From Ilex aquifolium (lineage: Eukaryota > Streptophyta > Magnoliopsida > Aquifoliales > Aquifoliaceae): a stretch of 64,000 nt of DNA. The notes below the pieces were generated by a model, which did not search any database, was not told the DNA's origin, and was given only the letters and a program-made list of their open reading frames with translations. Positions 31,440 to 61,476 of this stretch are shown here, piece by piece. A program made the position numbers and the translations under genes. Numbering within the stretch: the first letter of the stretch is position 1; each line of letters opens with the position of its first letter. The stretch lies in NCBI GenBank assembly GCA_951799425.1, contig OX637394.1:4599501-4663500 (forward strand). Reading direction: 5' to 3'.

Positions 31440-34400
31440 ATGGAACTGCATTGGGGTTTCTGGTTTGGGTTCTTACTATTCTATTGCTTAGGCAAAGTTG
31501 CTTTCTGTGATCAAGACGGTATGCATTGTTTGCCTTTTACTTTCCCTTCACATTCAATTGCATTTTGCAGCTCTTTCGTCCATCAAGTTTCCAAATGTAG
31601 TCTAAATTACCCCAGTTTAGACTTGGGCATGTGTTGCTTTGTGTTAATGGATAATGTTAATAGTAGGACTTACAAAGCTTCCTGTCCTTGCTTTAGCTCT
31701 CTCTCTCTCTCTCTCTCACACAATTCTCACACACACACACACACACACACATTCTTTAAGGCTCGGATGTTGCTTATGAGGTATAAATGGAACAGGATTC
31801 TTGAGTTTGTCTTGCGGAGGAACTTCGAGTTTCATCGATTCTTCCAACATTTCATGGGTACCAGATAGTACTTATGTGACAATTGGCAACACAACTACTG
31901 TTGATTACACAGAGGGCACTTCCTCGTCTCGACTTCCAGTCCGGTTCTTCCCCGATTCCCAAGCTCGAAATTGTTACAGGCTGCCCACAAAAATTGTATC
32001 GTCTTCGCTTCTTGTTAGGACCCAATTTGTGTACAAGAACTATGATGAACTTGGAAAACCCCCTGCCTTCTCTGTTTCTCTTGGTACTGCTGTTACTACC
32101 ACTGTGAACCTCACTGAAAATGATCCGTGGATCGAAGAGTTTATATTGCCTGTTAATAAGGATAGTCTCCCTCTGTGTTTTCATTCGATCCCCAATGGTG
32201 GATTTCCTGTTATTTCATATCTTGAAGTTCGGCCACTTCCTCAAGGAGCTTATAACGAGGGCATGGAGGATTTCCCCAATAAGTTACTTAGGAAGAGTTA
32301 TCGAATCAACTGTGGAGACACAAATGGTTCACTGCGGTGAGAATTTTTTCTCCATTATTTCATTTGATTTTGGTTTGTGTTATCTATAAGGCCTTAGTGT
32401 ATTGGTAAGGTTGCTACCATGTGGTTGCGCTCGGATTTGAGTCGCAAAAACAGTAATTCTGTATGTGGGGTGAGGTTGCGTGCATCTGGTACATTGGGAT
32501 GTTTTTTTTTTCTCTTTGCATATCTGCTGAAGTTTTGGAAATTGGTTTTTGTAATGACAGGTACCCTTTGGATCCTTATGATCGTATATGGGATGCTGAT
32601 GAGAACTTTTCTCCCTTTCATTTATCTACTGGCTTTGTTGTTCAAAGCACCTTCAATTTGTCAACTCTTCAAGAGAATCCTCCCATGGCTGTTCTTCAAA
32701 CTGCTAGAGTCTTGTCAAGATGGAAGGAATTGGTGTACAACTTTCCTCTTGATAACACTGGAGACTACTACATTGTTCTCTATTTTGCTGGGATCCTTCC
32801 TCTTTCCCCGACGTTTGATGTGTTGATTAACGGGGATGTTGTTCAGCCAAACTATTCGGTGAAGAGCGGGGACGTCAGTGCTCTATTCTTTACTCAGAAG
32901 GAAATCAAAAACTTGAACATCACATTGAAGACTATCATCTTCAACCCAATGATCAACTCAATTGAGGTGTATGAGATTGTTGATGTTCCCCCAGAGTCTT
33001 CTTCAACTACAGGTTCAATTTTTCATGATTTTGCATACTTGCTTGGTTTGTTTCCACTGCAAGAGTCCTCCGATCTTACTTGTCTCGATATATTTTGACA
33101 GTTTCAGCACTTCAGGTTATTCAGCAGTCCACTGGTTTAGATCTGGGATGGCAAGATGATCCATGTTCTCCTATGCCATGGAATCACATCAGCTGCGAAG
33201 GAAGTTTGGTTACTTCACTGTATGCAAATATTATATAGGTCGTTTTCTAGTTTTTTATTGTCTTCTCTCTAAGCGTTATTGCTCTTGGTTTCAACCTCAT
33301 CTTAGGGAACTTTCTAACATCAATTTGAGGTCAATCAGCCCTACATTTGGTGATTTGTTAGATCTTAAAACACTGTAAGTTTGTTTTTACAGAATTTACT
33401 GTATTGATTATGTTAATAAGTTAGTTTACGCTGCTTTGATCGTAGTCAATTCATACTCCCTTTCCTGCATTTATTTTTTGGGTGTCATGCTTGCAGAGAT
33501 TTGCATAATACATCACTTGCTGGAGAGATTCAGAACTTGGGTGGCCTGCAGCGCCTTGAAAAACTGTAATTCTTTGTGGAGTACTTTTTCTCCAAATTTG
33601 TTTCTTTATATAGCATTACTCGAACATTCATGAACTGAACATCGCAGGAACCTGAGTTTCAATCAGCTGACATCCTTTGGTTCTGAATTGGAAGACTTGA
33701 TTAATCTTCAAATTTTGTAAGTTTTCACTCTTCACCCATATCTGACAGAAATTAACTGTCGATTGGTCCATTATTTCATTACACCACCAAGAGATTTTAG
33801 TTAAAGGCAATACTAATGTGTTGTCTAAATGAAGGGACATGCAAAATAATAGATTACAGGGAATGGTTCCTGATAGCTTGGGAGAGTTGAAGGACCTTCA
33901 CTTACTGTAAGTGAACACAATCCAATTATCCTATGATGCAGTACAGTTCTTTCCTACTGTTGGAAACTTGTCTGGAAAACTTAAGCGACTTCACCTAGTG
34001 GAGAGCGTGAAACTGGATCAACAATTCATGATTTTATATGACGTCCTCTTCAGGAATCTGGAACACAATAAATTACAAGGCCCCCTCCCGCAGTCTTTAA
34101 ACAGAGAAAGTTTGGAAGTTAGGTATGGGATTGATATTCTTGCTGTCTATGCTTCAGATTTATTGTTGTTGTTTCTGCTTCAGATAACAGCCTCTTGATG
34201 CACTAATTCTGTGCAGAACATCAGGGAATTTATGCCTTTCCTTCTCCACAATGACATGCAACGAGTTTTCAATAAATCCTTCAATCGAGACACCACAAGT
34301 CACTATATTTACCAAAAGGAAGCATAAGAAGGGCCAAAATCACTTGGCAGTTATACTTGGTGCAGTTGGAGGAGTCGCACTTGCTCTTTTTGTTATTTCT

Positions 34401-37362
34401 TTTTCAGTATTCTTGTACACGAGGCGAAAGAAAACTGAAGCCACATACACAGCAAGTATGAAAAACTTGATATCCTGTTCACAATGGAATATCATTGCTT
34501 TATTCTTACACAGGATCGTGTATCAATGTTTAGGATCAGTGTCAGAGATGCGGAACTGGAATGCAGCAAAAGTCTTCTCCTACAAAGAAATCAAAGTAGC
34601 TACAAACAACTTTAAGGAGGTTATAGGCCGTGGTAGTTTTGGATCTGTTTACCTTGGAAAACTTCCAGATGGAAAACTAGTAGCTGTGAAAGTGCGGTTT
34701 GATAAAACTCAACTTGGGGTTGATTCTTTTTTCAACGAGGTTCATCAGCTTCCTTCCTTAAGCATCTTATTTTATTGATCTTTTACTCATTAGTAAGTGC
34801 AAGCTGATTATTCTTGCCAGAATATTATGGATGAATTTGCAGATCTTTTACAGATTCATTACTTAGTATGATGTTATCTTTAACAGGCTCAGAGACTGCC
34901 CTTTACATTTATCGGTCATAGGAAATTGTTAGACTATCGTGAGTCATCTCAATATAATTGGTATTGGTTATACTTGGTCTTGCAGCCGTTTGCAATCATA
35001 TATATGTATTTATCACTGGGCATTAGGTAATCTGGCTTGTAAACACGAGGCCAAATTTGAGTTCAAATCACATGGCGGGGAGATTTTTTAAAATTCCCAC
35101 GATTGTTTGGTTTGCATTGACAATTGTCCTGAGCTGCCTTACTTACCATGTCATGGATTGTTACCTAGGTGTCTCTTTTGTCCCAAGTTCGTCATCAGAA
35201 TCTTGTATCTCTAGAAGGCTTTTGTCACGAAGCAAAACAGCAGATACTAGTTTACGAATACTTGCCTGGTGGATCGTTGGCTGATAACCTTTATGGTAAG
35301 TGAACAAAAACTTGACTTCTATTTTCTGTGGTTCTGTTGTATTCTGTTGTATCCAGTTACTAATATCAAATTCATTTTCTTATTCTGCCTGTATATCCTC
35401 CATTACATTGTTTATGATTCTAATAGGTATTTACAAACTGTCATTTCAGGTTCAAATAGTAAAAGAATAACATTAAGTTGGGTCCGCAGACTGAAAATTG
35501 CTGTTGATGCTGCAAAAGGTATGTAGAAAATATTCTATTTTCAACCTCCAGGCAGAGCCAGGGAAGAGTAGAAACAGAATAAAAAGAAAAAAAAAGGGAA
35601 AACCTTCTAGTTTCTTTAAGTTTATCAACATGCAATTGATTGTCTTATATTTAACTAGGGGGGTTTGGGGTGGATTTCACTCAATCGTTCTTTGCCTGTG
35701 AAATATCTGAATTTTTTTTTTTTTTTGGAGTTATTGTCTCATTTTCAATATCTTTGACAGGGTTGGACTACTTACACAATGGGAGTGAGCCACGAGTCAT
35801 ACACCGGGATGTGAAGTCCAGCAACATACTTTTGGACACAGAGATGAATGCTAAGGTCTGTGATTTTGGCCTTTCTAAACAAATAACCCAAGCTGATGCA
35901 ACTCATGTGACTACTGTTGTCAAGGGCACTGCTGGCTATCTTGATCCTGAGTACGTTTTTAACATTGTGTTTTACTTGATTCTTGATGACTCTGAACCTC
36001 AGGCTCACCTTCACTATTCAATATGTGCAGATATTATTCCACCCAACAATTGACAGAAAAAAGTGATGTATACAGTTTTGGGGTTGTTCTTTTGGAGCTC
36101 ATTTGTGGTCGAGAACCATTAAGTCGCTCTGGAACTCCAGACTCCTTTAATTTGGTTCTATGGGTAATCCAAATTCCTTTTCAAGTCTGCTAATAATCAA
36201 TGGTTTCAATGTTATTGATAGCATGCTTTGTTCTGCTTCTTTACAGTTTGACATATACTTTTACTCACTAGAATCAGAGTTTTTATGTGCCTTTAGCTGT
36301 ATTTATAAATTCTATGGATTTCTTGATAAAAAACGCAGTTTGACATATACTTTTACTCACTAGAATCAGACTTTTTATGTGCCTTTAGCTGTATTTATAA
36401 ATTCTATGGATTTCTTGATAAAAAATGGGCAATTGTAAAGTTTCCCTAAAAACGCTATTATATAGACCTTCTTGACTTCTAGTTGTCAGTCTTCTTTCAG
36501 TAGAAAATCTTAAAGAGAGAACAAACACCGGGAGTGTTCTATTTTGATCATTTTTCGGGTGGTGTTGATGGGGAGGAATGTAGAATCTTTGAAGGTAAAG
36601 AAGAGAAAAATGAATTGTTATTTGATAGAGTGAAGTTCTTGGCATCTTTTGGGTATCAACTTTCTAATGAATTTTGTGATACTACTTTTATTGGTTCTTC
36701 AACATAATTGGAAATCCATTTGTGATAGTTTCTTTTATTTATTGTAATTTTTTCCTCTCCTGGGTGGAATTCTTTTCCACTTTTTTTTGTACATTTGCTT
36801 ATTTTCTATGAAATAAAAGGCTTTTGTTGATCTATCTTGCAAAACGTCTTAATTATGTATATTTTTATACAGCTAGATGTAGTCAATGATTATTAAAACT
36901 ATCTTCCTAGATGTATATTTTAATTATGTATCTTGTCTGACTTGTTTTTCTACAATATAGACTATGACGATTTTCTAGGAAGATAGTTTAACAGTCGTGT
37001 TTTCAGTTTTTTCTCGAGTAATTTATATTGTATTACCGAAGAGATGCATAGAATTCTGATTTGAACATTTCTTTAGACATCTAGATAGTGCAACATTGAT
37101 GAGCAAAAAAATATGGTAGTGTCATTTACTTTGCCAAATGCAGGCCAAGCCATACTTGCAGGCAGGAGCATTTGAGATAGTGGATGAGAGCTTGAAGGGA
37201 AGCTTTGATGTCGAGAGCATGAGAAGGGCAGCTCTGATTGCTTCAAGGTCTGTAGAGAGGGATGCATCGCGAAGGCCTAACATTGCTGCAGTATTGGCAG
37301 AGCTGAAAGAATCCTACAGCATTCAGCTCTCATATCTTGCTTGTGGTGGACTTCTAAATTGA
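31440..37362 (+). CDS. Malectin-like/LRR receptor-like protein kinase (At1g67720-like)
   Basis: Sixteen exons join in frame to 906 residues: 31440-31518, 31796-32336, 32561-33012, 33102-33219, 33306-33374, 33497-33565, 33648-33716, 33835-33906, 34054-34122, 34217-34455, 34534-34739, 35169-35295, 35450-35518, 35761-35950, 36031-36163, 37144-37362. The product has a signal peptide (residues 1-23), a malectin-like ectodomain (about 27-360, exons 2-3), about five LRRs with most encoded by one 69-72 bp exon each (exons 5-9), a transmembrane helix (about 556-580, [20 protein letters not shown]) and a Ser/Thr kinase from about 607. Kinase motifs are intact: [18 protein letters not shown] (Lys about 645), the RD motif in [15 protein letters not shown] and [10 protein letters not shown]. 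An active plasma-membrane kinase of the LRR-I type is expected; the ligand is unknown. Intron 10 is 78 bp, in frame and stop-free. The exon 11 donor (gag/gttcat) is weak and inferred from family alignment. Confidence 0.88.
31697..31753. repeat. (CT)n and (CA)n microsatellites in receptor-kinase intron 1
   Basis: A run of CT is followed by acaattct and a run of AC, visible directly within the intron. Confidence 0.9.
36246..36429. repeat. 92-bp tandem duplication in receptor-kinase intron 15
   Basis: The block from 36,246 (gtttgacatatacttttact) repeats from 36,338 with offset 92 and one or two mismatches (cagag/cagac; the end aaacgc/aatggg). Confidence 0.95.
36500..36835 (+). mobile_element. 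3' end of a LINE retrotransposon in intron 15
   Basis: One frame reads [20 protein letters not shown] and then [15 protein letters not shown] before a stop. This pattern ([13 protein letters not shown]) is typical of the C-terminal end of plant LINE ORF2 proteins. It is followed by ttgtacatttgcttattttc and an aataaa-like tail, as at LINE 3' ends. Only the 3' remnant is present, in the same orientation as the host gene. Confidence 0.6.
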
Positions 37363-46164: not shown

Positions 46165-47488
46165 AGTCCTTTTTTTCTAATTTCTTTTTAAAAATAATTA
46201 TTGTTGTTAGAACGGATCAATATTAAGTTTTTTTTTTTCAATGTATTTTTTCTAAATTTCTTTTAACAGTAGATCACCACAATAAATTGACCTGTGTCTC
46301 ACTATATATAAACATATCCCCTAGGGTCATGTTTGTTTCGAGTATTACATGGTATTATAAGGTGGGATAGAAGGAAATAATATGTTTTTTTTGTATTATG
46401 TTTAAGCATACGGTATCACCGATTTTTTTTTTACGGTATCACTGATTCATAGCATCAGATTCTTTATTTTTTATGTCGATTTTTTATATTATTCGGAATT
46501 TTTTTGGTATAAATTGTTATATCATGTATTATTGCGTTACACAAACGGAATAATGGAATTGATGATGTTAAAGGTAAAATAGTATATTTGTTATATAAGA
46601 TGTGATAGAATATATGGTTGTTTGTGGGACCTACCATAGTACATATTGAACAAATAAACATGAGAGGGAATTGAAATACTTTCTATTATTGGTACTAATT
46701 TCTATTAATATTAAAAATGTAAAAAATACATTTTCAATACCACCCATATTTAATCCCCTAAACAAACATGCCCTACAAGTATATGGTGAGCAATGTACCA
46801 ACCATTCTACCGAATTCCTTTTCACACATCCATTGTGACTTATTTTGGCGCATGCTTTTGTGTAATGGAATGCAAAAGCAATGTTCATAATTTTAATACC
46901 AATGGTACGACTTATCTATCGTGTGTTTATTGTGAGGCTAGTGGTTAGTTTAATGATCATTCTTCTATTATTAGATCTTAAAGTCACATGTTTAAACTTC
47001 ATAGCCTCTTATAATAGTGTTTGACAAAAAAAAAAAATAGTGCACTATTGAAAGAAGGGGGTATATGTTCTAATTTATATAAAACTTGAAAATCCAGCAG
47101 TCATGCCTAAAACTGTTAACCAAACCGAACTATTCGAACTCGGTTCATTTTTTGCTCGTTTAAGTTTAACTCGTTTTCTAATGAGCAAAATTTGAATAAT
47201 TTTTTAGACTTATTTGAAAAACGAGTCCAACAGACTCGCCTCGAAATTCAACACACTCGACTAGTTTATGTGCAAATACTTGGACTCGGCTCGGTTTCGG
47301 CAAGTTTTGGACTCGTTCAAGCTTGACTCATTTTCTAAACGAGCCGAACTTGAACAATTTTTTAAACTCAATTAAAAAAACAAGTTTGTTAGGCTTGGCT
47401 CGAACTTGTTTGAACTTGTTCGACTATCAGGCCTAGCCGTGCCATTATGTTAACTATTGATGTATATCACTAAAAATTATATCATGTT
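46165..47488. other. Gene-free DNA with a dispersed repeat of actcgg/gagccg motifs
   Basis: No gene is recognised. Bases 47,110-47,440 carry alternating motifs such as gaactcggttca, gactcggctcggttt, aacgagccgaacttgaac and ggcttggctcgaacttg. This is a style of non-coding repeat common in plant genomes, and its class is unknown to me. Confidence 0.4.
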
Positions 47489-48204
47489 TGATGATGCCTA
47501 AAATAAATAGACACGAGCTCAGGAAATAAGCTCAGGTCAGGAGCTCCGGTAGAATAAGCAGAGTTCATCCAGCAGTGGTCAGAGCTCGTCTAGTCAGCGC
47601 TAAGAGCTCCCAGCCGGGGACACATGTTGGGAAATGATGAATGGACAGCAAGATGACAACGGATACAGTTATAAAGGAAGTAGAACCAATCCAAGGCATG
47701 AAACCCGTATTCAACTGCGATCCCCTCTTAAAACTAAGGAGAATCCCACGAAAGAAGGCAAAGATCTCTCCATTTGAAGCCAGCCATAAGGAGTTTAGGT
47801 AACTCCGGAATTATGGATGAAGATAGGGCACGATCCCTTCAATATAGGAAGTAATTCCGGGTTAGAAGTAAGCAGGAGGCCATAAAAGGGGAAGGCAACC
47901 TCCATCACAAAAAAGAAAAAAAAAGGCTAGGAACCCTAATACCCTGAGTATTCGACTGTAACACGTTCAACTGATGAATAAAGAGAAAGGAACAAGAGCC
48001 TCCATTGGAGAGTGGACTAGCCGAGCTCACTAGCCGGTGAACTACTATATTTCTATCGTATTTCACACATTATACATGACTAGAAAAAGCATTCATTCAC
48101 CACTTCATGAGCCTCGTAGCTCAGATGTCATATCAATCCCCATGCAAACTGTTCATGCCAATTAATTTAGTTCCATAGCTCATCTCCGAAGGTTTACACC
48201 ATCA
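47489..48204 (+). repeat. 5' LTR (716 bp)
   Basis: It begins TGATGATGCCTAAAATA and ends TTTACACCATCA. A TATA-like cataaaaggg lies at 47,881 and an aataaa polyadenylation signal at 47,977, in the expected U3-R order. Confidence 0.97.
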
Positions 48205-48206
48205 GT

Positions 48207-48229
48207 TTGGCGCCGTCTGTGGGAACGAC
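48207..48229 (+). other. Primer binding site
   Basis: Directly after the LTR lies TTGGCGCCGTCTGTGGGAA. TGGCGCCGT matches the complement of the 3' end of plant tRNA-Asp (ending ACGGCGCCA) for nine bases and then diverges. The tRNA assignment is tentative. Confidence 0.6.
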
Positions 48230-48266
48230 TGTTCCTTCTACAAATAAGCTGGTCTTTCAGTGACTG

Positions 48267-50465
48267 ATGGTAACGACACGAAATATGAGCAGAAGTCAAA
48301 CAAACCTACCGCGAATGCAAGACCCACCGGAAGCTACCAACGGCAGACAACCCGGGAATATCCCAGAGGTCAATTCCCCCATTAATAACGAGTTGGAGGC
48401 CCTTCGCCTCGTCAACCAACGCTTACTAAAAGAAAATGAAGAGCTATCAAAGCTCGTACAACGCCCACAGGAGGCACGACCGGCCCAAGAAGGCCAGAGT
48501 AATCCCCCTTACAGAGAACGGCGACACTGGGACCTCCTTAGAGAGGTCGGCGAAGGAGGAGAAAGCAGCCATACCAGGGGGTATGCTCCTTTTGTACCCC
48601 CTAGGAATGGCCATAACGACGAGGTGCAAAGTCAGAACGACGGGGGGGATAGGGATGATTTTTTCCCTTATCCTCAGGACAGGAAAGAGCAGCGCTGGGA
48701 ACAACGCTTCAAAGACATCCAGCAAGAGCTCAGCCACATGAAAGAGGCTGTAAAAAGCAAGGCTCCGGTTACCATGGATATCTTGGTTCAGCAAACTGAG
48801 TCCCCATTCACCACGGGAGTGCTACACTTCCCTCTCCCACCTAAGTTCAGAATGCCTCAAATAGAGGTCTTTGACGGAACGAAAGATCCCGTGGATCACC
48901 TCAACACTTACAAGAACCAGATGGAGTTGCATGGATACCAGGATCCTGTACGTTGCAGGGCCTTTGCCATTACACTGAAAGGTTCTGCCCTAGCTTGGTT
49001 TAACAGGCTCCCACCAGCCTCTATCTCATCCTTCAAAGAGCTCTCCATAGCTTTCGTATCTCACTTTATAGGAGCTCGGATATACAGAAAGCCGAGCTAC
49101 CACCTACTAAATGTGAAACAGGGGCCCCAAGAAAATCTGAGGTCATACGTGCAAAGGTTTAACTCGGAGACATTGAAAGTAGACATTACAGATGAAAAAT
49201 TTGCTATAACGGCTTTCATTGCTGGATTGGGAGTGCAGTCAAAGGACTTGATGTTCTCTATATCGAAGAACCCTCAGGCAAGTATGGCTGAAGTATTAGC
49301 CAAGGCAGAGAAATATATAAATGGAGAAGAGGCACTCCTTTCTAAGGTAGGAGGTACATCTTCACGAAAGGAGAAGGAAAAAGAAGAAAAGAGAAGGGAC
49401 CGGAGTCCCAGGAAGGAGAAAGGGCGGGAAAGGTCCCCAAGAAGGGATAGAGACCGCTCACCCAAGAGGAGAGGAAATGTCAGAGATCGTTTGGGTCCCA
49501 TGCAGCCAGAACTACAGCCCAGATACGGACCTCAGCGATTTACCCCTCTCACTGCCGTTGTGTCACAAGTATTGTATGAGGTCCAAAACGAAAGGTTCTT
49601 GAGATGGCCACCTCGGATGAAGGCAGACCCGGCAAAGAGAGACCCCACGAAGTACTGTGATTATCACAGGGATCATGGACACCACACTGATGATTGCATT
49701 CAGTTAAAGAAGGAAATCGAGTTCTTGATCCAGCGAGGTCAGCTGCGTCGTTTTGTCGCCAACGACAACCAGAACCAAGCTCTTCCACCTCCACCACCTC
49801 GGCAGCCGGCACCTGCGCCGCACCAGCAGCCTCTAGGGGAAATAAGGGTGATATCTGGAGGGTTCGCAGGAGGTGGAGAGTCAAGCTCAGCTCGGAAGGC
49901 GCATCTCCGGCGGATCAGAGCCGAAGAAGCTCTCGAAGTGTACGCTGTATCCAAGGCACCACGCTTGGATACGGCTATCACTTTTTCAGATGCTGATTTA
50001 GAAAGGTGCCAATACCCCCATGATGATCCACTGGTGGTACGAGCTGTGGTGGCAAATAGAACAGTTCATCGGGTTCTAATTGATAACGGGAGCTCGGCTG
50101 ATATTATTTTCGCACCTGCGTTCGACAGGATGGGCATAGGAAGGCAGAAACTTGAGCCAGTAAGCACTCACTTACTGGGATTCTCCGGGGAAAAGGGTGC
50201 TCCCCCTGGGTTCAATCCAGCTCGTGCTCACCCTGGGGGACCCACCTTGCCAAGCCACTACCACTGTCAAATTCCTAGTAGTCGATGCACCATCTGCGTA
50301 CAACATCTTGCTTGGAAGGCCATCCTTAAATTCTATGAAGGCAATCCCATCTGCCTATCATTTAGTCGTGAAGTTCCCTACAGAAAATGGAATCGGAGTG
50401 GTCCGAGGAGACCAGCGCGTAGCACGGGAATGCTACATGGCTTCTATAAAAAGGAAGGAGGTTGA
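48267..50465 (+). CDS. gag: Retrotransposon Gag and start of protease
   Basis: The frame starts 62 bp after the 5' LTR (MVTTRNMSRSQTNLPRMQ). An N-terminal coiled-coil-like stretch (NNELEALRLVNQRLLKENEE) precedes the retrotransposon Gag domain at about residues 180-350 (IEVFDGTKDPVDHLNTYKNQ). A basic Arg/Lys/Ser-rich segment (about 365-415) follows, then a zinc-knuckle-like Cys/His cluster (CDYHRDHGHHTDDC) and the aspartic protease motif VLIDNGSS at about residue 602. After about position 50,195 this frame leaves the family pattern, and the protease continues in the next frame. The last 90 or so residues are therefore frameshift product. Gag forms the cytoplasmic particle that packages the element RNA. 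Confidence 0.85.
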   Translation: MVTTRNMSRSQTNLPRMQDPPEATNGRQPGNIPEVNSPINNELEALRLVNQRLLKENEELSKLVQRPQEARPAQEGQSNPPYRERRHWDLLREVGEGGESSHTRGYAPFVPPRNGHNDEVQSQNDGGDRDDFFPYPQDRKEQRWEQRFKDIQQELSHMKEAVKSKAPVTMDILVQQTESPFTTGVLHFPLPPKFRMPQIEVFDGTKDPVDHLNTYKNQMELHGYQDPVRCRAFAITLKGSALAWFNRLPPASISSFKELSIAFVSHFIGARIYRKPSYHLLNVKQGPQENLRSYVQRFNSETLKVDITDEKFAITAFIAGLGVQSKDLMFSISKNPQASMAEVLAKAEKYINGEEALLSKVGGTSSRKEKEKEEKRRDRSPRKEKGRERSPRRDRDRSPKRRGNVRDRLGPMQPELQPRYGPQRFTPLTAVVSQVLYEVQNERFLRWPPRMKADPAKRDPTKYCDYHRDHGHHTDDCIQLKKEIEFLIQRGQLRRFVANDNQNQALPPPPPRQPAPAPHQQPLGEIRVISGGFAGGGESSSARKAHLRRIRAEEALEVYAVSKAPRLDTAITFSDADLERCQYPHDDPLVVRAVVANRTVHRVLIDNGSSADIIFAPAFDRMGIGRQKLEPVSTHLLGFSGEKGAPPGFNPARAHPGGPTLPSHYHCQIPSSRCTICVQHLAWKAILKFYEGNPICLSFSREVPYRKWNRSGPRRPARSTGMLHGFYKKEGG

Positions 50466-53400
50466 GAACATCCAACTGGATGAGCTCGACATGAGAGATG
50501 AAATGGAGACAAGACCAATGCCATCGGAAGAGCTGGAACCAGTTCAGCTTGATGAGAAGCCAGAACACCTCGTTTATGTGGGTTCCAAACTGAACGCTGA
50601 GCTCAAAGGACTCCTCATCCAGTTCCTAAAAGAGAGTATATGAGTGTTCGCTTGGAAGCAAGAAGACATGGAAGGAATTGACCCATCGGTTATTACCCAC
50701 AAGCTATGCGTGAACCCAACTTGCAAACCCATCAAACAGAAGAGGAGGAGCTTTGCTTCTGAAAGGCAAAAGGCAATCAATGAAGAGGTCAGCAAACTCC
50801 TCCATGCCAAGGCTATCAGGGAGGTTCATTACCCCACTTGGTTAGCAAATGTAGTTCTTGTAAAGAAAATCAATGGGAAGTGGCGATTGTGCATCGACTT
50901 CACTGATCTCAACCGAGCATGCCCCAAGGACAGTTTTCCTTTACCTCGGATTGACCTAATAGTGGATGCCACTGCAGGGCACGAGCTCCTCAGTTTCATG
51001 GACGCCTTCTCAGGCTACAACCAGATCAGGATGGATCCCAGCGATCAGGAGAAGACCTCCTTTGTTACTGAACAGGGAACATATTGTTATCAGGTCATGC
51101 CCTTCGGATTGAAGAACGCTGGAGCCACTTACCAGCGGTTGGTAAATAAAATGTTCCAGAAGCAAATATGAGCATCCATGGAAGTTTACATTGATGACAT
51201 GCTAGTGAAGTCACTGAAAGCAGAGCTCCACATCGAGCACTTAGCTGAGTCATTTCGAATTCTAAAAGAGTACAAAATGAAGCTAAACCCTGCGAAGTGC
51301 GCATTTGGGGTCTCGGCAGGAAAATTTCTGGGCTTTATAGTCAGCAGCAGAGGGATTGAAGCCAATCCAGAAAAGGTTAGAGCAATGGTGGAAATGCAAT
51401 CACCATCCAACACGAAAGAAGTGCAACGTTTGACAGGCAGGATAGCTGCACTGAGCCGTTTTGTGTCTAGGTCCAGCGATAAATGCCAGCCATTTTTTCA
51501 GATCTTGAAGAAGGCATTCCGCTGGGATGCCAAGTGTGAAGAAGCATTCGAAGACCTAAAGAGATATATGAGCTCTCCTCCTGTTCTGGTGAGCCCTCTA
51601 GAAGGGGAAGTCCTCACCCTCTACCTAGCGGTTTCAGATTTTTCAACAAGTGCAGCGCTAGTTAGGGAGCGAGACAGAGCTCAGCAACCCGTCTACTACT
51701 GTAGCAGAGCTCTGAGGGGGGCAGAGGAGAGATATCCAAAGATGGAAAAACTCGTTCTAGCTCTGGTTACAACAGCTAGGAGACTTAGACCTTATTTCCA
51801 GGCTCATACTATCGAGGTTCCAACAGATCAGCCAATGAAGCAAGTGCTACACAAGCCGAAGTCCTCAGGGAGGTTGGTTAAATGGGCCGTAGAGCTCAGT
51901 GAGTTTGATATCAGGTACAAGCCAAGAACTGCCATCAAAGGGCAAATTTTGGCAGATTTTATTGCAGAATTCACAGCAGCAGCGCCTATGGAAACCACGG
52001 ATTTAGTACCGGACCTTCCCATATGGAAGCTTTCAGTGGATGGAGCTGTCAATGCTCAGGGAAGCGGTGCAGGAATGATCCTGACCTCTCCAGAAGGAAT
52101 AGACGTCGAATATGCCCTCAGATTTGGGTTCAAAGCTTCAAATAATGAGGCAGAATATGAAGCCGTTATCGCTGGGCTTAATCTTGCCTATTCTATGGAA
52201 GCAGAGCAGCTGGAGATCTGCAGTGACTCTCAACTGGTGGTGAAGCAGATAGAAGAGTGTTACGAGGCAAGAGGCAAGAAGATGGTCCTGTACCTCAAAA
52301 AGGTACGAGAACTAATGAAACAGTTTGTGCAGGTTAAGGTCAGACACGTGCCTAGAATGGAGAACTCACGAGCAGATGCTCTGGCAAGGTTAGCAACTGC
52401 CTCGCAAGAGGATTTGGATAGGCTAATTCCAGTAGAGCACCTTCCAAAGCCCTCGGTAAGCATCGAAGAAGAGGAAATTCTATCAATTGAAGCTCAGCCG
52501 AGCTGGATGGATCCCATCGTAGAGTACCTTCAGAATGGAACTCTGCCAAGTAATGCCAAGGAGGCATCCAAGCTAAGGGCCAGGTCAGCCAGATTTTCCC
52601 TGATGCAAGGGAAACTGTACAAACGTGGATTTTCAATGCCTCTCCTTAAGTGTATAGGAGACGAAGATGCTAATTATATACTCAGAGAGGTACATGAGGG
52701 GATATGTGGCAATCACATAGGAGCTCGGGCCTTGGCAGGAAAAGTACTGAGGCAAGGATATTATTGGCCCACCATGCTCAAAAGCGCCACCGACTTAGTA
52801 AGAAAATGCAAAACTTGCCAAGAGCATGCTAATATGTCCCACTGTCCTCCCGAGCTCCTAACCTCGGTGGTAAGCCCATGGCCTTTTCAGCAGTGGGGGT
52901 TGGACATTCTGGGACCCCTTCCCACCGGTGTGGGGCAGTGTAAGTTTGCCATCGTAGGAGTGGATTACTTTACTAAATGGGCAGAGGTCGAACCTTTGGC
53001 AACGATCACAGAGCAAAAAGTTCAAAACTTCGTTTGGAAGTCGATAGTTTGCAGGTTTGGAGTTCCCAGAGCGTTCGTATCTGACAATGGAAAGCAGTTT
53101 GATAATTCAAAGTTCAAAAGTTTTTGTGCTGAGCTTGGAATCAAGAACTATTTCTCAGCTCCTGCCCATCCCCAGTCTAATGGGCAGGCAGAGGTCACAA
53201 TAAGAACCATAAAGTCAGCTTTGAAGACCAAGCTAGAAAACCTAAAAGGCAAATGGGTGGAGTACATTCCGGAGGTATTGTGGGCCTACAGGACCACCGC
53301 CAGATCTGCGACTCAGGAAACCCCCTTTGCTTTGGCCTTTGGGACCGAGGCAGTGGCCCCAGTAGAGATAGGGCTCCAATCACCAAGGGTGGAGTTTGCA

Positions 53401-53739
53401 GATTCCGAGCACAATGATGAATCTCTCTTGCTGAACCTCGATCTCTTGGATGAAAAGAGGGACAGAGCTCTGCACCGTGTCCGCACTTACCAAAAGAAAA
53501 CTGCGAGGTATTATGACAGGAGGGTAAAACACAGAAGTTTCAAGGCTGGAGATTTGGTACTTAGGAGGCTTCTGCTTGCAAGAAAGGATCCCACGCATGG
53601 GAAATTGGGACCTAATTGGGAAGGGCCCTATATCGTGTCAAGGGTAATCAGACCGGGGAATTATGAGTTGCAAACAGAGGAAGGAAAGGTTCTACCTCAC
53701 TCGTGGAATGCCGAGCACCTTAAGAAGTTTTTCCAGTAA
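50197..53739 (+). pseudogene. pol: Retrotransposon Pol, interrupted by two stop codons
   Basis: One frame carries the end of the protease, then reverse transcriptase, RNase H1, an archaeal-type RNase H and integrase. Visible signatures: LANVVLVKKINGKWRLCIDF and YIDDML (RT active site), YLAVSDFSTSAALV (first RNase H), LSVDGAVNAQGSGAGMIL and SDSQLVVKQIEE (second RNase H), a HH-CC zinc site ending CKTC, and the integrase D-D-E set in WGLDILGP, FVSDNGKQF and NGQAEVTIR. The frame is entered by a one-base shift near 50,195 within a run of G. It is broken by TGA at 50,641-50,643 (before RT) and TGA at 51,169-51,171 (inside RT, just before the YIDDML region). Both could have arisen by C-to-T change at CGA. 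The copy therefore should not make full-length Pol. Confidence 0.9.
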
Positions 53740-53822
53740 GTGTTACTTGTAATATAGCTATTTTTGAATAAGAAAGAGCAAGTCTTTTATTCACCCTTCA
53801 ATGGATTCCAAAGTAAAGAGAT

Positions 53823-54369
53823 GGGCTCTTCAGCTCATAAACAAACGATAAGCTTCAAAGCTTATAAATACAAGATGAGCTCTTCAGCTCATAAAACAAA
53901 CGATGAGCTTCAAAGCTTATAAATACAAGATGAGCTCTTCAGCTCATAAAACAAACGATGAGCTTCAAAGCTTATAAATACAAGATGAGCTCTTCAGCTC
54001 ATAAACAAACGATAAGCTTCAAAGCTTATAAATACAAGATGAGCTCTTCAGCTCATAAACAAACGATGAGCTTCAAAGCTTATAAATACAAGATGAGCTC
54101 TTCAGCTCATAAAACAAACGATGAGCTTCAAAGCTTATAAATACAAGATGAGCTCTTCAGCTCATAAACAAACGATAAGCTTCAAAGCTTATAAATACAA
54201 GATGAGCTCTTCAGCTCATAAACAAACGATAAGCTTCAAAGCTTATAAATACAAGATGAGCTATTCAGCTCATAAACAAACGATAAGCTTCAAAGCTTAT
54301 AAATACAAGATGAGCTCTTCAGCTCATAAACAAATAATAAGCTTCCAAGCTTACCAAAAGCAAGATGAG
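53823..54369. repeat. 54/55-bp tandem array (about ten copies)
   Basis: The unit runs gagctcttcagctcataaac - aaacgataagcttcaaagct - tataaatacaagat and recurs with only one-base length changes (an extra A) and rare substitutions. The last copy is degenerate. Each unit holds two small dyads, gagctcttcagctc and aagcttcaaagctt. It starts just past the pol stop codon and ends before the antisense gene ends. The 18-residue repeat encoded on the + strand (FKAYKYKMSSSAHK) is probably incidental. Confidence 0.95.
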
Positions 54370-54922
54370 TTCTACAGCTCCTCGGCGCATACAAGCTTCT
54401 AGGCTCGTAAAATTCAAGACTGGTATCTTCTTGGAGACACCAACAGTCAAATTAAAGAACGAGCTCTTCTTGGAGACACCAACAGTCTTTCCTCCGCGAC
54501 TAGTGGTCCTTATGCACCCTCGAAGACCCTAAAATGTCCAGTACGGCAGAGAGCACTCACAAAGTCAGATGGGAAGTGAGGTCAGTACCAACATGACATT
54601 TTGTTTTCCATCAACGCCCGTGGTGCGACCTATGGAAATCAGTTGGGAATTGAGGTCAGCACAAACATGATCTTCTGTTTTCCATCGATGTTCGTGGTCT
54701 GATCTCTGGGACTAGTCAGAAACTAAGGTCAGTGCAAACATGATCTTCTGTTCGTGTTCCGAACACCAAGAGCTCGTATATGGGCATGCATGCTCAAAAA
54801 TGAACAACCTAGAATTCAGAATATCCAAGAAAATAAACGTGCGGAAAAGTATAAAAAAAAAAGGGGGTCATAGTCTGGCATCGTTCAAGAAAAGAAAGAA
54901 AGATACAAGGGAAAAATCCTAG

Positions 54923-56007
54923 TCTTTCTTAAGTTCAGCTTTCAGCTCAGCAACCTCTCCCTTCAGGCTAGCATTCTATTTTTGCAGCTCATCCCTTTCT
55001 TGCTCAGCCTTGTGAAGCGAGTCAAGAAGCTTCTGACCAATGGAGGTAAGGAAGATGGTGGACAGAGAGTCAGGAGAAGGAGAGTCATCCCTCTTACGCT
55101 TCCTTGAACTCGTGACGGTGTTTCCATCCTTGTTAGAATCCCCGTCCTCGTCAGAATCAGAGAAAGAGGTCCAGGAAGAGTAAGGAATAGTGGAAAACTC
55201 AAACTCAGTAGCCTCAGCCCCAAGCAAATAGAGGTTTGCGCTCATCATCAGCTCGGAATAAGTCTTAGACTCCACAAGCAACAACTCGTTGATATTCACC
55301 ATCCCTGGTAAACCCAGGTCAGGTGGATCTGCACAGCAAGGACATAATAAGAGCATATCTTTAAAAGGAAAATACTCAAAAGAGCTATGCTCGAGCTTAC
55401 CAATACGAGAGAAGCTCTTCCAGGACCGAGGAATCCTAGCTTTACGACAGCGATCCTCAGGAGACCTCCAAGCCTCTCCAGAAGCAAAAAAGAAACGCTT
55501 AGACCACCCTTCAGGGTTGGAGGGAAGATCTAGAACCAAAGGGCGTAAATTGAAATCCCTCCAACGGAAGAAACTGAAGCAGGGAGCATCATCTTCCTCA
55601 ATCTCGAAGAAGTATAGAAACTCAGAGACAAAGGGGAACCTGCCAAGAGCATGCAGGCGGCAGAACAAGAAGAAGCTTACCATAGCACCCCATCCTCGTG
55701 GAGAAAGGCGAGAAGGGCACAGGCCATAATAGGCAAGAACTCGCCCAATGGCCGGATGAATGGGAAGGCGAAGTCCCATGTCCATAGCACCTTCAAAGAA
55801 ACAGACTTCCCCTCGGGGGAGGTAGTTACAAGGCTCGTCGGAGGAAGAGACTCGCATAGGCAAGTCAAGATCAGGGAAAAACCGTTTTTTGATGTCCACC
55901 AAATCAGAAGATTCAAGTATTGAAGGGGACAGATAGCGACAATGCCACTTCCATTCGATTCCAAAGGAGGATCGTTCCTGGAACAAAGAAGAAGCGGAGG
56001 CAGCCAT
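54923..56007 (-). CDS. Antisense ORF 2 of the retrotransposon (Transposase_28-like)
   Basis: The frame starts at 56,007 (MAASASSLFQERSSFGIEWK) and runs 343 codons to a TAG at 54,976. It stays open past that stop for about 17 more residues of the same coiled-coil character (LKGEVAELKAELKKD), so the TAG looks like a late interruption. The core (GEVCFFEGAMDMGLRLPIHP, VLAYYGLCPSRLSPRGWGAM, FEIEEDDAPCFSFF) parallels the core of the other antisense gene at 57,199-59,837. Both resemble the Pfam 'putative gypsy type transposon' family from memory. A probable intron lies at about 55,300-55,400 (gtaagc...tgtgcag). A nuclear-type basic stretch SSRKRKRDD precedes the tail. Function is unknown. Confidence 0.6.
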
Positions 56008-56153
56008 CGAAAATGCTGGTAAGGAAAAAGACGCAAGAAATCAAGAAGAAAGTCAAGAATAGGTCATGCACTTGGGAGCTTTTCAGGAAACTAATAGCCA
56101 AGAAAGAGGGAATCAAGTGTCCTGTTTAGTTTCTTAATTAATGAAGGTAGCAG

Positions 56154-56236
56154 CGGTTATGGAAAGTGGCTACGGTTATGGAAAGTGGCTACGGTTATGG
56201 AAAGTGGTTGCGGTTATGGAAAGGGGAAAGACGTGG
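56154..56236. repeat. 19-bp minisatellite
   Basis: cggttatggaaagtggcta repeats with starts at 56,154, 56,173, 56,192 and 56,211. A shortened further copy lies near 56,237. Confidence 0.95.
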
Positions 56237-56299
56237 CGGTTATGGGAAGCGGTTGAGAGAAAAACGCGGGAAAAGAAATCAGATATTACCCCTCCTATT

Positions 56300-57198
56300 T
56301 GCACTCAAAACAACCAACGAAAATTCTGACCCCACCAAGCAACGTATCCTCCATATTTGAGCCCAGCCCAGTCAAAAACAGAACACTTGTATAGCAAGTC
56401 TTTAAGGCCTACAATTCTAAGAGCCCTGCTCGCGTTAGAGAGGAAGAATTCATCAAAGGAACTTAACAGCCTCTGAAAGTTCATAACCTTGCTTAAAGAA
56501 GGTCTGAAGCATCCCTCAAAACAAGATGGGGGAAAAAGAGAGGTAAAACGTAGAAGAAGGTCTTCTATTTTTCGGACCAACGAAATTTTTTCATTCCAGA
56601 AAGGGATCCGTCGAAAGAGCAATGAAGCTCAGAAATAACCTTTAAGGTCAGACAACAGAGCAAAGTAGCTCAGAAGGAGCTCTTAAGATACAAAAAGAGC
56701 TAAAAAAGCGCAGTAAGAGCTCTTAGGTTCAGAAGAAGAGCTGCATAGCTCAGCAGGAATTCACGAGCACAAGCTATGCAACTCAGAACGAGCACGCCAG
56801 TTCAGAATATCAGACTAAGCAGCTCAGAACGAAGAAGGATAAGTAATGGATCCTTAGGGTACCAACCACTGAGCTTAAAAGGCTTAGGAGAAGCAGTTGA
56901 GCATAGCACCAAGCCTCCTGTCTTCTTCAAATCTAGTAATTTTGCTTCAAGAAGTGCATAGCACCCCTCAAAGCAAAAGGGGGCAAGGGAAGTATACAAA
57001 GTTGAATACATACAGGTGCGGAAATTCAAAGATATATTCAAAAATATATATGTGCTGAAATTCAAAGGGGCATATGAATATGATAAACCAACAATGAAAA
57101 AACAAAATGACGAACGATCGCAAAGTAGCACAAGGTCCTAGCCCAAGTCAAAGTTACATCTCAAAAATTCTTTACAAAGAAATTACAATTAAAAAGAC
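56300..57198. other. Spacer between the two antisense genes
   Basis: Low-complexity, with recurrent agctcag / gagctc motifs (56,620-56,830). No gene is recognised. It would hold the promoter of antisense ORF 2 and the 3' end of antisense ORF 1. Confidence 0.5.
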
Positions 57199-59837
57199 CT
57201 AAGTTTCTGAAGGGGGAGTGGACAGAAGACCCTGCAGCTCGGCAGACACAGCATCAGCAGGAGAAGCAGAACCCAGGAGCTCAGGGGGCAAGGATCCTGA
57301 TGCTGGAGGAGTGGAATTTCCGGGAACACTGACCCCAGGAGCCTCTGCCGTACCAGGCAATGATGTTTGTTCGAGTGCCTCAGTCACCAGGTCAGCAGAT
57401 GAGGCCACTGCAAGAACAGTAGAGGGGGAAGCAGAGGCATCTTGGAGTAGAGCTCCAGGAGGAAGAGCTGAGGTGTCTTCCTCACCACTAGAGTCAGATT
57501 CTTCCATTTCCTCCTCAGTAGGGATAGGAAAATTGAATTCGAGATCTGGGTAAGCTTTGATAGCTTTACGCCTAAAAGCAAGCCATCCAGTAGCCCACAA
57601 AGTGGTGGCCTCATCCTTAAGCTCGGCAATCTCCTTGCCTTTCTGTGTGACCAAGTTTTTCTGCTCCTCAAGCTCCTCGCAGAGCTTGCCATTTGCTTCA
57701 TTGAGGGCGAGATAGTCTTGCTTGGCCTGGCTGAGCTCTTTCTTGGCGTCAAAGGCCTCTTGACTGGCCTTGGTCCACGCATCAACCTTAAGCTGCAGGT
57801 CCTCCTTAACCAGCCTCAGCTCGTCCTGAGCTTTCTTCTCCCCTTCCTCAGCTCTGACCTTGACGGTCAATGTATGCTTAAGGTCGGAAGCTTGCTTCAT
57901 CGATTGCTCTTTGAGATTCTCCACTTGAGCTCTGAGGTCTTCATTCTGAGTTCTAAGGCCTTCGTTCTCAACGGACAATTCGGAAATTTTGGCCTTATAT
58001 GTCTTCAAGACCTTAAAGGAGCTCTCTTGAGATCGGACTCGGTGCAGCAGACCTTTCGTATGAAGGGCAGCCTGAGAACATAAGAAAAATACAGCAAATC
58101 ACATCAGACCACGAAATGCGAACAAGCAAATAGGAACAGGGGCGAGCACTTACAACAGCCCCCCCTGAAGAGCTGAAGAGATGGATTCCTCAAGGGGCAT
58201 GGAAGCAGCCTTCAGAACATCAGATTCAGAAAAAATAGAGGAAAGAGCTCCAGCAGCAAGGTCCATGTTGTCAAAAAAGGAGTCCTCACCTTCCTCCTCA
58301 GATTTTCTCTCCTTCTCAGTCGCCTTCCCAGAGGCACTGTATTTGAAATTCCCGGGTTGGAGATCGGGAATCAATTCCAAAGCCTTCTCGACCTCAGAGG
58401 AGGAAGGGGAAGCCTGACCCCCCTCTTGAGCAGGCGCCAACCTAGAAGGGGCCACTGGAGGGGAAGAGGTGTTTGCAGTTTGTGGAGTCCCAGAGGAGGA
58501 GGGCGGAGCCTTGCTTGGAACCTGTTCTTCAGTTACAGAAGGGGGAGAAGACACCTCCAATCTGGGGATTTTAGCCCAGATACCTGGACCACTCCCAGAA
58601 CTAACCCGGGACTTGCGCTTGCTGGATCTACCACCTTTCATCAGCTCATCCACCTTGGCCTTGAGCTCTTCTGGAGTAGACTTCATGGTAGAAGAACCTG
58701 GAATGTCTGGGGGGGAGTAGGAAGATGTAAGGAGAAGAAGAAGGGAAGGAAGCGCAACGAAGAGGAAAAGAAAGAAGGTACCTTCGTCAGCCCCTAAAAT
58801 CGATAATGGAATCGCCAAGGTCACCACAGGGGGACTCAGACCTAGCCGCACCAAATTTCGTGACTCAATCAGGTCAGCGTACCTCTCTGGCTTGATCTTC
58901 TCCAACTCCTCTAGCACTTGCTTATCCTCAAGGCTGAGCTCAAGACGATCACCTGAAAAAAAAGAAAGTGTGCCAATAAGGAAAAGGCTAAAGGTTTGCA
59001 AGTTCCAGATTAGAGCTCAGTTGACTTGAGGAAAGACTCACGCAAGTTGTCTGGTTCAGCCCAAGCTGTTGGGATACCGAGAGTATCCGTCTTATCAGCA
59101 GGATTATACTCCCAATTGGTGCCCCCGACAAAAAAGAAGTGTTCCTTCTAGTGCTTATGAGAGGTCGGAATGTTAGAGATAAACTGCCTAGCGTTGGCAC
59201 GCTTAGAGGCATACAAGAAGCCTCCAGAGGTCGGCTTAACGTTGAAGAGCTCCAGAAACAAAGAAATACTAGGAAGCCCAAGTTTATGTTTCCTAAAGAT
59301 GACTAGAAGACCAACCATGACACCATAGAAGTTGGGAGAAATCTGGGAGGGGCACACATGGAAATGTTGCAGAATAGCCTTGATGAAGGGGTGCAGAGGA
59401 AAGCGAAGACCGTTATCAAAGGAGGCAAGAAAGAAGCAGACCCTATTGTGTACTTGTTCTACATAGTAGACTGATCTGTCTGGGCACCAGGGTTCGACCC
59501 CAGGAGGAAAGCCGTACCGAATCTTATAAACTTTCATTAGCTCAGGGGCCTCTTTGCTGTAGCCCACAGACTCGGCATGCTTAAAGGCAAGCCCCAAATA
59601 TGTGGTCTTCCCTTCAACCCCAACTCCATTGACCTTGCCTTTGCCTTTGTCTGGCTTAGGAGCCAGGGAGGGGGACGTTGAGGGAGGCTCTTCGGTATTA
59701 ACCACAGAATCAACGGCTTCCACCCCAGGGAAGTTATCTATCTCGTCACCTACCTCCCCTAATTCGGAATCCTCTTCGGCTGACCTAGACCCTAAAAGTG
59801 AAACAGAGGAGCGAGTGGCTCTAGAAGAGGCAGACAT
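57199..59837 (-). CDS. Antisense ORF 1 of the retrotransposon (Transposase_28-like, spliced, coiled coil)
   Basis: Probable exons on the minus strand: 59837-59042, 58952-58782, 58706-58154 and 58071-57199, each with GT-AG signals. Exon 1 (MSASSRATRSSVSLLGSRSA) holds the core YGFPPGVEPWCPDRSVYYVE and GLRFPLHPFIKAILQHFHVC. It is interrupted by a TAG at 59,148, and sense resumes beyond it (EHFFFVGGTNWEYNPADKTD). Exon 2 gives LSLEDKQVLEELEKIKPERY. Exon 3 is Ser/Pro/Glu-rich (MKSTPEELKAKVDELMKGGR). Exon 4 is a long coiled coil (ENEGLRTQNEDLRAQVENLK) with an acidic Ser/Pro-rich tail. The exon 3-4 junction does not keep frame as read, possibly because of a run of seven G at the exon 3 end. Antisense genes of this family are reported in Tat-lineage elements; their role is unknown. 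Confidence 0.6.
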
Positions 59838-60316
59838 GATAGGAAGAGAAAAAGGAAGGTTAAAGGAACGGTAAAGCAGAGGAGCACAGGACAGACACTC
59901 TTTGATAACCCTTGGGTCGGCACAGTAACTCCTGACGGCAAGGATGTGAACTATAGAGCTCCAATCAACGAAATGAGGAAGGGGGGCTAAGCAACGGTCA
60001 CGATTCTAAAAGTAAAAGAATCGAAAAGCCCAGAAATGTAGCAACCACCTCGAACTCGAGGGATCCAGAGCAAAAGGGGGAAGAGAAAGGGGCAAAGGAC
60101 GTACCTAACTCAGGAATAGCTGTGAGTGGAAGCCTGGAGCACTATCGGAGGAAGGAGGCGATGCGAATCTTCGAAACGAGGGCAGGGAATTCGATTTCAA
60201 GCAAGAAAGCAGAAAGGCTCAAGTAAAACGATCCGAAATCGCAGAGAAAATGGAGATGAGGAGCAGTAAGGGAGATGAACAGTGTGAAGAAAACGGTTCA
60301 TGTAGCTGTTTCTGTG

Positions 60317-60324
60317 TATTTAAA
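60317..60324 (-). promoter_or_regulatory. TATA-like box for antisense transcription
   Basis: On the minus strand, tcaagctttaaatacacaga is followed about 30-90 bp on by a pyrimidine-rich leader (ttcatctcccttactgctcc), and 480 bp later by the antisense ORF 1 start. Inferred only. Confidence 0.35.
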
Positions 60325-60471
60325 GCTTGAAGGGCGTGGGCTGAGACATGCGCGGGAATCGAGGAGAAGTCATGATTACTGCAAACCGTCAAAAATCTCC
60401 AAGTCACGTACTAGCCACGTGAATATTTAACTCAGTCTGGAATGCAGGTCAGCCCTTACCTAAGCCAGCTT

Positions 60472-60493
60472 AAGGCAAGAGCTGGGGGGCAAC
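60472..60493 (+). other. Polypurine tract
   Basis: aaggcaagagctggggggca lies immediately before the 3' LTR, where plus-strand priming occurs. Confidence 0.6.
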
Positions 60494-61209
60494 TGATGAT
60501 GCCTAAAATAAATAGACACGAGCTCAGGAAATAAGCTCAGGTCGGGAGCTCCGGTAGAATAAGCAGAGTTCATCCAGCAGTGGTCAGAGCTCGTCTAGTC
60601 AGCGCTAAGAGCTCCCAGCCGGGGACACATGTTGGGAAATGATGAATGGACAGCAAGATGACAACGGATACAGTTATAAAGGAAGTAGAACCAATCCAAG
60701 GCATGAAACCCGTATTCAACTGCGATCCCCTCCTAAAACTAAGGAGAATCCCACGAAAGAAGGCAAAGATCTCTCCATTTGAAGCCAGCCATAAGGAGTT
60801 TAGGTAACTCCGGAATTATGGATGAAGATAGGGCACGATCCCTTCAATATAGGAAGTAATTCCGGGTTAGAAGTAAGCAGGAGGCCATAAAAGGGGAAGG
60901 CAACCTCCATCACAAAAAAGAAAAAAAAAGGCTAGGAACCCTAATACCCTGAGTATTCGACTGTAACACGTTCAACTGATGAATAAAGAGAAAGGAGCAA
61001 GAGCCTCCATTGGAGAGTGGACTAGCCGAGCTCACTAGCCGGTGAACCACTATATTTCTATCGTATTTCACACATTATACATGACTAGAAAAAGCATTCA
61101 TTCACCACTTCATGAGCCTCGTAGCTCAGATGCCATATCAATCCTCATGCAAACTGTTCATGCCAATTAATTTAGTTCCATAGCTCATCTCCGAAGGTTT
61201 ACACCATCA
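60494..61209 (+). repeat. 3' LTR (716 bp)
   Basis: It is the same length as the 5' LTR and differs at six positions seen by eye, all transitions. It is followed by the target duplication ATGTT. Confidence 0.97.
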
Positions 61210-61476
61210 ATGTTCTTAAGAGAAGGGAAATTCACAACTATTTTTTAAACGATTTCAAAGTTGTAAATTTTTTTTTTTTTGCGAATATTTTGTTAAACAC
61301 CATATGTCATTGAATTAAAACATTTTGAGACAAATTTTTTGTGACAGTTGTGTTCACAGTCACAAAAAGTTTATTTGCTATCACAAGTACTATTTGAGAT
61401 TAGTCATTGCTACTATAAAGACTTTATCACCATAATAAATAGAGTTTCAAAAATTTTTTATGGTAGTAACAAAAAT

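Follow-up and report, generated by a model that had tools for sequence, protein, structure and literature searches.

A Ty3/gypsy retrotransposon of the Retand type in the genome of Ilex aquifolium carries two minus-strand genes between pol and its 3′ long terminal repeat (LTR), each encoding a TRP28 domain (PF04195): gene A, with four exons (59837-57199), and gene B, with two (56007-54919). The element spans positions 47489-61209 of the window, by which we mean the whole 64-kb stretch analysed (G000:C4:4599501-4663500) of an 800 Mb genome, the one genome analysed; the labels L009-L055 denote other loci compared with the window element. We read A and B as two ancient, diverged antisense genes, each with its own start and introns, whose products may form a pair of nuclear accessory regulators, a tentative reading of the sequences to which we give a little less than even chances.

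The initial annotation placed two minus-strand genes with a common layout here, and both are present, with VCFFLASFDNGLRFPLHPFIKAIL..CPSQISPNFYGVMV in A and VCFFEGAMDMGLRLPIHPAIGRVL..CPSRLSPRGWGAMV in B; its end coordinate of 54923 falls just short of the final stop of the B frame (54919). The similarity that it proposed between the two holds in a BLASTP comparison of the A exon 1 open reading frame (ORF) with the B ORF (34% identity over 97 amino acids, E=1e-17), and PF04195 matches A with 33.6 bits and B with 38.5 bits, at a curated cut-off of 26.2; on the Pfam scores and the BLASTP match, a chance motif was rejected as the source of the likeness. The similarity extends beyond the motif first noted, via W-x-x-x-FFF..W..IP..W up to the intron, and in an alignment of 29 domains of A, B and a third type, C, twelve columns are invariant and all 29 domains match PF04195 (E<=1). 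The exon limits of A and B are predicted models from conserved GT..AG borders in the aligned loci. The introns and coiled-coil-like end previously ascribed to A are supported; the heptad score of exon 4 in the L029 homologue is matched by 5 of 1000 shuffles. B also has an intron (55400-55329), which goes beyond what had been described, and its tail in L029 has a heptad score matched by 38 of 1000 shuffles; TRP28 domain, basic patch and coiled-coil-like tail follow in identical order in the two genes. A further strong sign of kinship is the donor of intron 1, which follows a conserved W after six codons, in phase 1, in 16 of the 17 genes checked (4/5 A, 4/4 B and 8/8 C, the C type being compared at the donor side of its first intron only); the exception is the A gene of L050, which is off by one base. 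By these comparisons A and B are homologous PF04195 genes.

A tree of 37 TRP28 domain sequences, built without an outgroup after four fragments had been dropped, resolves three groups, A, B and C; the stems of B and C each have 100% support, and A is set apart from B plus C with 99% support. The C type comes from L032-like elements, and the L032 pol is 53-59% identical to that of the window element. Mean tree distances are 2.45 for A-B, 2.59 for A-C and 2.58 for B-C, with A-A distances of no more than 0.73 (computed over 18 A, 7 B and 8 C sequences, leaving out the frameshifted L050 B, two L018 A fragments and L049). A and B are thus about as distant from each other as either is from the third type of a far more distant Tat family, and judged from these distances the pair is ancient. 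A recent tandem duplication of A to give B was rejected, since the two share 34% identity and the tree puts more than 2 substitutions per site between them, compared with 0.73 at most among A types, and the internal duplication within the window element suggested by the initial annotation is not borne out by an A-B distance that approximates A-C and B-C. We conclude from the tree that the TRP28 gene comes in no fewer than three old types, two of which can be kept by a single element. One C-type match (G000:C24:180967-181503) lies inside an open frame of 2,209 amino acids, by far the longest in its list.

Because the root of the TRP28 tree cannot be placed without an outgroup, duplication within the lineage and acquisition from outside are both compatible with it. 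An ancient internal duplication followed by divergence, with A and B redundant and loss of one tolerated, would account for two genes of the same family, with the same intron and orientation, standing side by side; the A-B distance, about as large as A-C and B-C, gives no specific support for a duplication inside the lineage, and we consider this explanation rather unlikely, for the further reason given by the selection on the two genes.

The reading frames of both genes are conserved, as had been anticipated, with ratios of nonsynonymous to synonymous divergence (dN/dS) below 1 against diverged copies. Measured against the window copy, dN/dS of A exon 1 is 0.10-0.27 in 10 loci (0.78 against the close copy L010), that of the short A exon 2 is 0.12-0.73 in 5/6 loci, of A exon 3 0.19-0.38 in 11/12 and of A exon 4 0.15-0.44 in 9/11; the corresponding values are 0.09-0.15 in 8/8 loci for B exon 1 and 0.11-0.37 in 7/8 for B exon 2, and the remaining exon/locus pairs have saturated synonymous sites, so that no ratio is computable. 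Several synonymous divergences (dS) exceed 1, making the ratios rough for the farthest pairs, and loci that share families are not independent. As a frame control, five loci were compared in all frames (leaving out the L054 row for A exon 1, in which A was matched to a B gene): the annotated frame gives 0.09-0.37 wherever measurable, while the shifted frames give 0.78-5.6 and contain stops. Of the frames read on the opposite strand, one has a ratio of 0.15-0.50, which is to be expected where third codon positions coincide, and the others have at least 0.53. These ratios show that the protein frames of A and B are held by purifying selection. Parallel constraint of this kind on both genes would not be maintained under full redundancy. 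It also bears on a possibility raised in the literature (PMC7264820), that the proteins are irrelevant and antisense transcription itself regulates the element via double-stranded RNA and small RNAs. As the sole role this is contradicted by the constraint on codons in the annotated frames of A and B, and we regard it as very improbable.

Comparison among copies points to a different history for A than for B and pol. L015 and L018 are 96-99% identical to the window element in B, the tandem array and pol, 92-94% in the LTR and leader, and 47-74% through the several parts of gene A; by sliding identity the main replaced stretch runs from about 59.7 kb to about 57.6 kb, inside gene A, with a second dip at about 57.2 kb. 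In L016-type copies B exon 1 is 95-97% identical to the window copy, B exon 2 is 94-95% identical and pol about 96%. From the LTR as far as the A-B spacer identity is mostly 70-90%, falling lower at 57.1-57.5 kb and changing in a step near 56.4 kb, and the spacer beyond B is about 70% identical; in L016 either side may have been replaced. Between the window copy and L016, dS is 0.103 in pol, 0.109 and 0.155 in B, and 0.835, 0.438 and 0.84 in A; between the window copy and L015 it is 0.045 in pol, 0.118 and 0.067 in B, and 0.891, 1.53 and 0.735 in A. L018 and L024 agree with this pattern, and over the four copies dS is 0.4-1.6 in A and 0.05-0.2 in B and pol. The introns diverge together with A (a comparison made without L024). 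In the tree of B sequences L015 and L018 fall among L010, L013 and L014; in that of A sequences they are set off by a branch of 0.59. Hypervariability of A by selection alone was rejected for L015, L018, L016 and L024 because synonymous sites diverge in A and not in B or pol. Since the silent sites jump too, recombination rather than selection on the protein explains the divergence, and on this pattern A is exchanged between elements apart from B and pol, most simply by template switching.

Such exchange observed within the family of the window element, together with a B type that is no nearer to A than to C, lends some credit to the idea that B itself came over from another Tat element through recombination (template switching), so that the pair joins the accessory genes of two elements. 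We find this doubtful: there is no donor with an undamaged lone B-type gene among the loci examined, and even L048/L054, the A family that has diverged furthest among those examined, has B, which would make any such event old.

Used as queries, A exon 1 and B returned at least 150 and at least 118 places, respectively (best-scored candidates, and thus lower bounds). A lies upstream on the same strand at 110 of the 118 listed B places and does not at three; the other five lie outside the set examined. This count comprises 78 of the 118 places with an A or PF04195 match upstream on the same strand among the matches listed, 15 further places that pair with an L055-type A found in a second A search (a sixteenth such pair coincides with a locus read individually and is counted once), and 17 of 20 other B loci that were read, where a TRP28 A gene, damaged in some, lies in the same orientation as B. 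A subfamily with B only, suggested by 15 B places of equal score for which the first lists gave no A, was rejected because A lies upstream in L055, which was read directly, and in the 14 others by the second A search. The three exceptions among the B places are L009, which is interrupted by a reversed second copy, L012, with no A core, and L028, with no A. At L009 (4156-9031) the second copy is of the same family, and its LTR end abuts the region upstream of the first copy's B; a simple inversion of A relative to B was therefore rejected there. In L028 (4064-4081) B directly adjoins the 3′ LTR region, gene A and the spacer being gone, and the two matches at the join overlap by 18 bases. Both genes occur together in the diverged families L029, L030, L050 (with B frameshifted) and L048/L054. 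The expectation that other copies carry the pair thus stands for most of the copies examined and for diverged families, and fails for one related A lineage, in which B is absent between A and pol in both loci examined (L031, and L041 continued as L053) and gene A adjoins pol. The absence of B from L031/L053 and of A from L028 is what redundancy of the two genes would allow. L032 has a single TRP28 gene within the 9.9 kb examined.

Returning to a retained pair of regulators, we suggest that the A and B proteins would act in the nucleus as accessory regulators of the element, joined by their coiled coils, with B the constant partner that stays with pol and A an exchangeable one that could set the target of the complex (LTR, repeats or a host factor). 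The antisense orientation would let the introns outlast retrotransposition, because the genomic RNA comes from the other strand, in which they would be unspliced. Nuclear localisation has been reported for the Grande antisense protein (PMC7264820). DNA binding by TRP28 has been predicted but is not established (PMC11963269). The homology, the common intron place, the co-occurrence, the selection and the exchange described above were counted in favour of this reading, as were the basic patches and coiled-coil-like tails of both A and B. Several results weigh against the pair as we read it. An AlphaFold model of B exon 1, which holds the TRP28 domain, is of middling confidence (mean predicted local distance difference test score, pLDDT, 62) and gave no convincing match to a solved fold, which leaves DNA binding a prediction; the heptad score of A exon 4 in the window copy is matched by 55 of 500 shuffles and is not striking; there is no clear A exchange in L026 (dS 0.13-0.23 in A, 0.14-0.16 in B and 0.12 in pol) or in L010; and, as the B-less lineage (L031 and L053, 2/2 loci) and the A-less L028 show, an element has no strict need of either gene in cis.

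Some DNA transposons encode anti-silencing proteins that change fast and follow their own repeat motifs, such as VANC of the VANDAL elements. By analogy, B might be the constant core of a two-part recognition system and A its specificity subunit, which elements would swap by template switching, evading host recognition or cross-regulation by sister families. We think this distinctly unlikely; if it were true, candidates for the targets would be the 54-bp repeats next to pol and the CCATAACCG boxes upstream of B.

The features of the element are collected in Table 1. The element is flanked by a 5-bp target duplication, ATGTT, at 47484-47488 and 61210-61214. In the pol ORF the domains are RT_RNaseH (147-243), RVT_3 (287-405), H2C2 (499-550) and rve (569-665), so that a second RNase H (aRH) sits between RNase H (RH) and integrase, an arrangement that serves as a criterion for the Retand lineage of the Tat clade and is shared with Ogre (PMC6317226). 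Where Retand elements have an antisense TRP28 ORF, downstream of pol and ahead of the 3′ LTR, this element has two, and both its LTR (716 bp) and its internal region (12,289 bp) fall inside the ranges published for Retand (315-1,194 bp and 7,380-12,869 bp; PMC11963269). The order of RH, second RNase H and integrase, the antisense TRP28 genes and the size ranges place the element in the Retand lineage, following published criteria (PMC6317226, PMC11963269). The window copy is broken, with stops in A, B and pol (in pol, two in-frame stops at 50641 and 51169) and a frameshift in A, near the end of exon 3, relative to 17 other aligned loci.

Table 1. Features of the Retand element in window coordinates
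Feature	Position	Strand	Evidence or remark
5′ LTR, 716 bp	47489..48204	+	99.16% identity to 60494-61209 (6 mismatches, 0 gaps)
gag ORF	48267..50465	+	PF03732, 54.9 bits
pol frame	50197..53739	+	reverse transcriptase, RH, second RNase H (RVT_3), integrase in last ORF
Tandem array beside pol, 54-bp unit, 10.3 copies	53819..54380	+	Tandem Repeats Finder (TRF), 96% matches
B exon 2, basic patch RKRKR, short coiled-coil-like tail	54919..55328	-	in-frame stop 54976-54978 in window copy
B intron, phase 1, same place as A intron 1	55329..55400	-	GT..AG in 9/9 aligned sequences, window copy included
B exon 1, TRP28 domain (PF04195)	55401..56007	-	profile match and frame conservation
Cluster of 5 CCATAACCG boxes upstream of B	56154..56245	-	TAACCG upstream of B in 7/7 relatives
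A exon 4, coiled-coil-like	57199..58071	-	heptad score against shuffles
A intron 3	58072..58153	-	GT..AG in 18/18 aligned sequences
A exon 3, Ser/Pro-rich, basic patch SSKRKSR	58154..58706	-	frame comparison between loci
A intron 2	58707..58781	-	AG in 13/13, GT legible in 12/13 aligned sequences
A exon 2	58782..58952	-	frame comparison between loci
A intron 1, phase 1	58953..59041	-	GT..AG in 12/12 aligned sequences
A exon 1, TRP28 domain (PF04195)	59042..59837	-	in-frame stop 59148-59150 in window copy
3′ LTR, 716 bp	60494..61209	+	purine-rich tract GAGCTGGGGGG before it

The B intron has an open reading frame in the window copy and an in-frame TGA in some relatives. A general decay of B, suggested by one in-frame TGA in many of the at least 118 B matches, was rejected because the TGA lies inside the intron in L016, L019 and L026, the three aligned relatives in which its position was checked. 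The CCATAACCG cluster upstream of B may be a candidate regulatory site, and at least one TAACCG is found upstream of B in all seven relatives examined. In L016, L019, L020, L026 and L027 the spacer between B and the array (54381-54918) is about 71-73% identical to the window copy, and the B exons and array are 92-97% identical. Elsewhere in the window, the ORFs at 10546-12531 and 31801-34778 resemble host genes; judged by eye, these would be one for a BTB/NPH3-type protein and one for a malectin-like receptor kinase.

The element resembles the Retand elements of Vicient 2025 in having antisense PF04195 coding sequence between pol and the 3′ LTR and an array beside pol, and differs from that set in the distance from pol to the 3′ LTR, 6,754 bp in the window against a reported 2,933-6,566 bp (PMC11963269). 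That survey describes 104 antisense ORFs in 63 clusters, 57 with TRP28; it thus includes elements with several antisense ORFs, and a single antisense TRP28 ORF per Retand element is the published state (PMC11963269). Antisense extra genes 3′ of pol are likewise reported in maize Grande (gene23), rice RIRE2, Silene Retand (ORF4) and bean PvRetro13 (ORF2), among which Retand ORF4 has TRP28 and PvRetro13 ORF2 has an SMC match, in different elements (PMC7264820). Unlike these two, the window element has TRP28 and a coiled-coil-like part together in gene A, and it carries another TRP28 gene besides. The review uses the plural 'aORF-3Rs' for Retand, so that a second antisense ORF there is possible (PMC7264820). 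HBZ of human T-cell leukaemia virus (HTLV) is also an antisense accessory gene of a retroelement, with a nuclear product; it is one gene and not a paralogue pair, and the likeness is one of description, with no sequence relation claimed (PMC11963269). In the available parts of the literature on antisense Retand ORFs, figures, supplements and the primary Silene Retand paper aside, no element is described as having two TRP28 genes, and as far as we have seen, within that scope, a retained TRP28 pair in one Retand element appears to be new.

Very fast evolution or independent acquisition has been proposed for the extra ORFs of such elements, and any function for them has been questioned (PMC6317226). 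Retand antisense genes are widespread, and one family in one genome now addresses the question of function, with protein frames kept by selection and a first intron whose place is common to three TRP28 types. Large divergence of A between otherwise similar elements is, in the clear cases, module exchange, because synonymous sites jump as well; and an element that keeps two TRP28 types makes tests of partners, binding and complementation possible.

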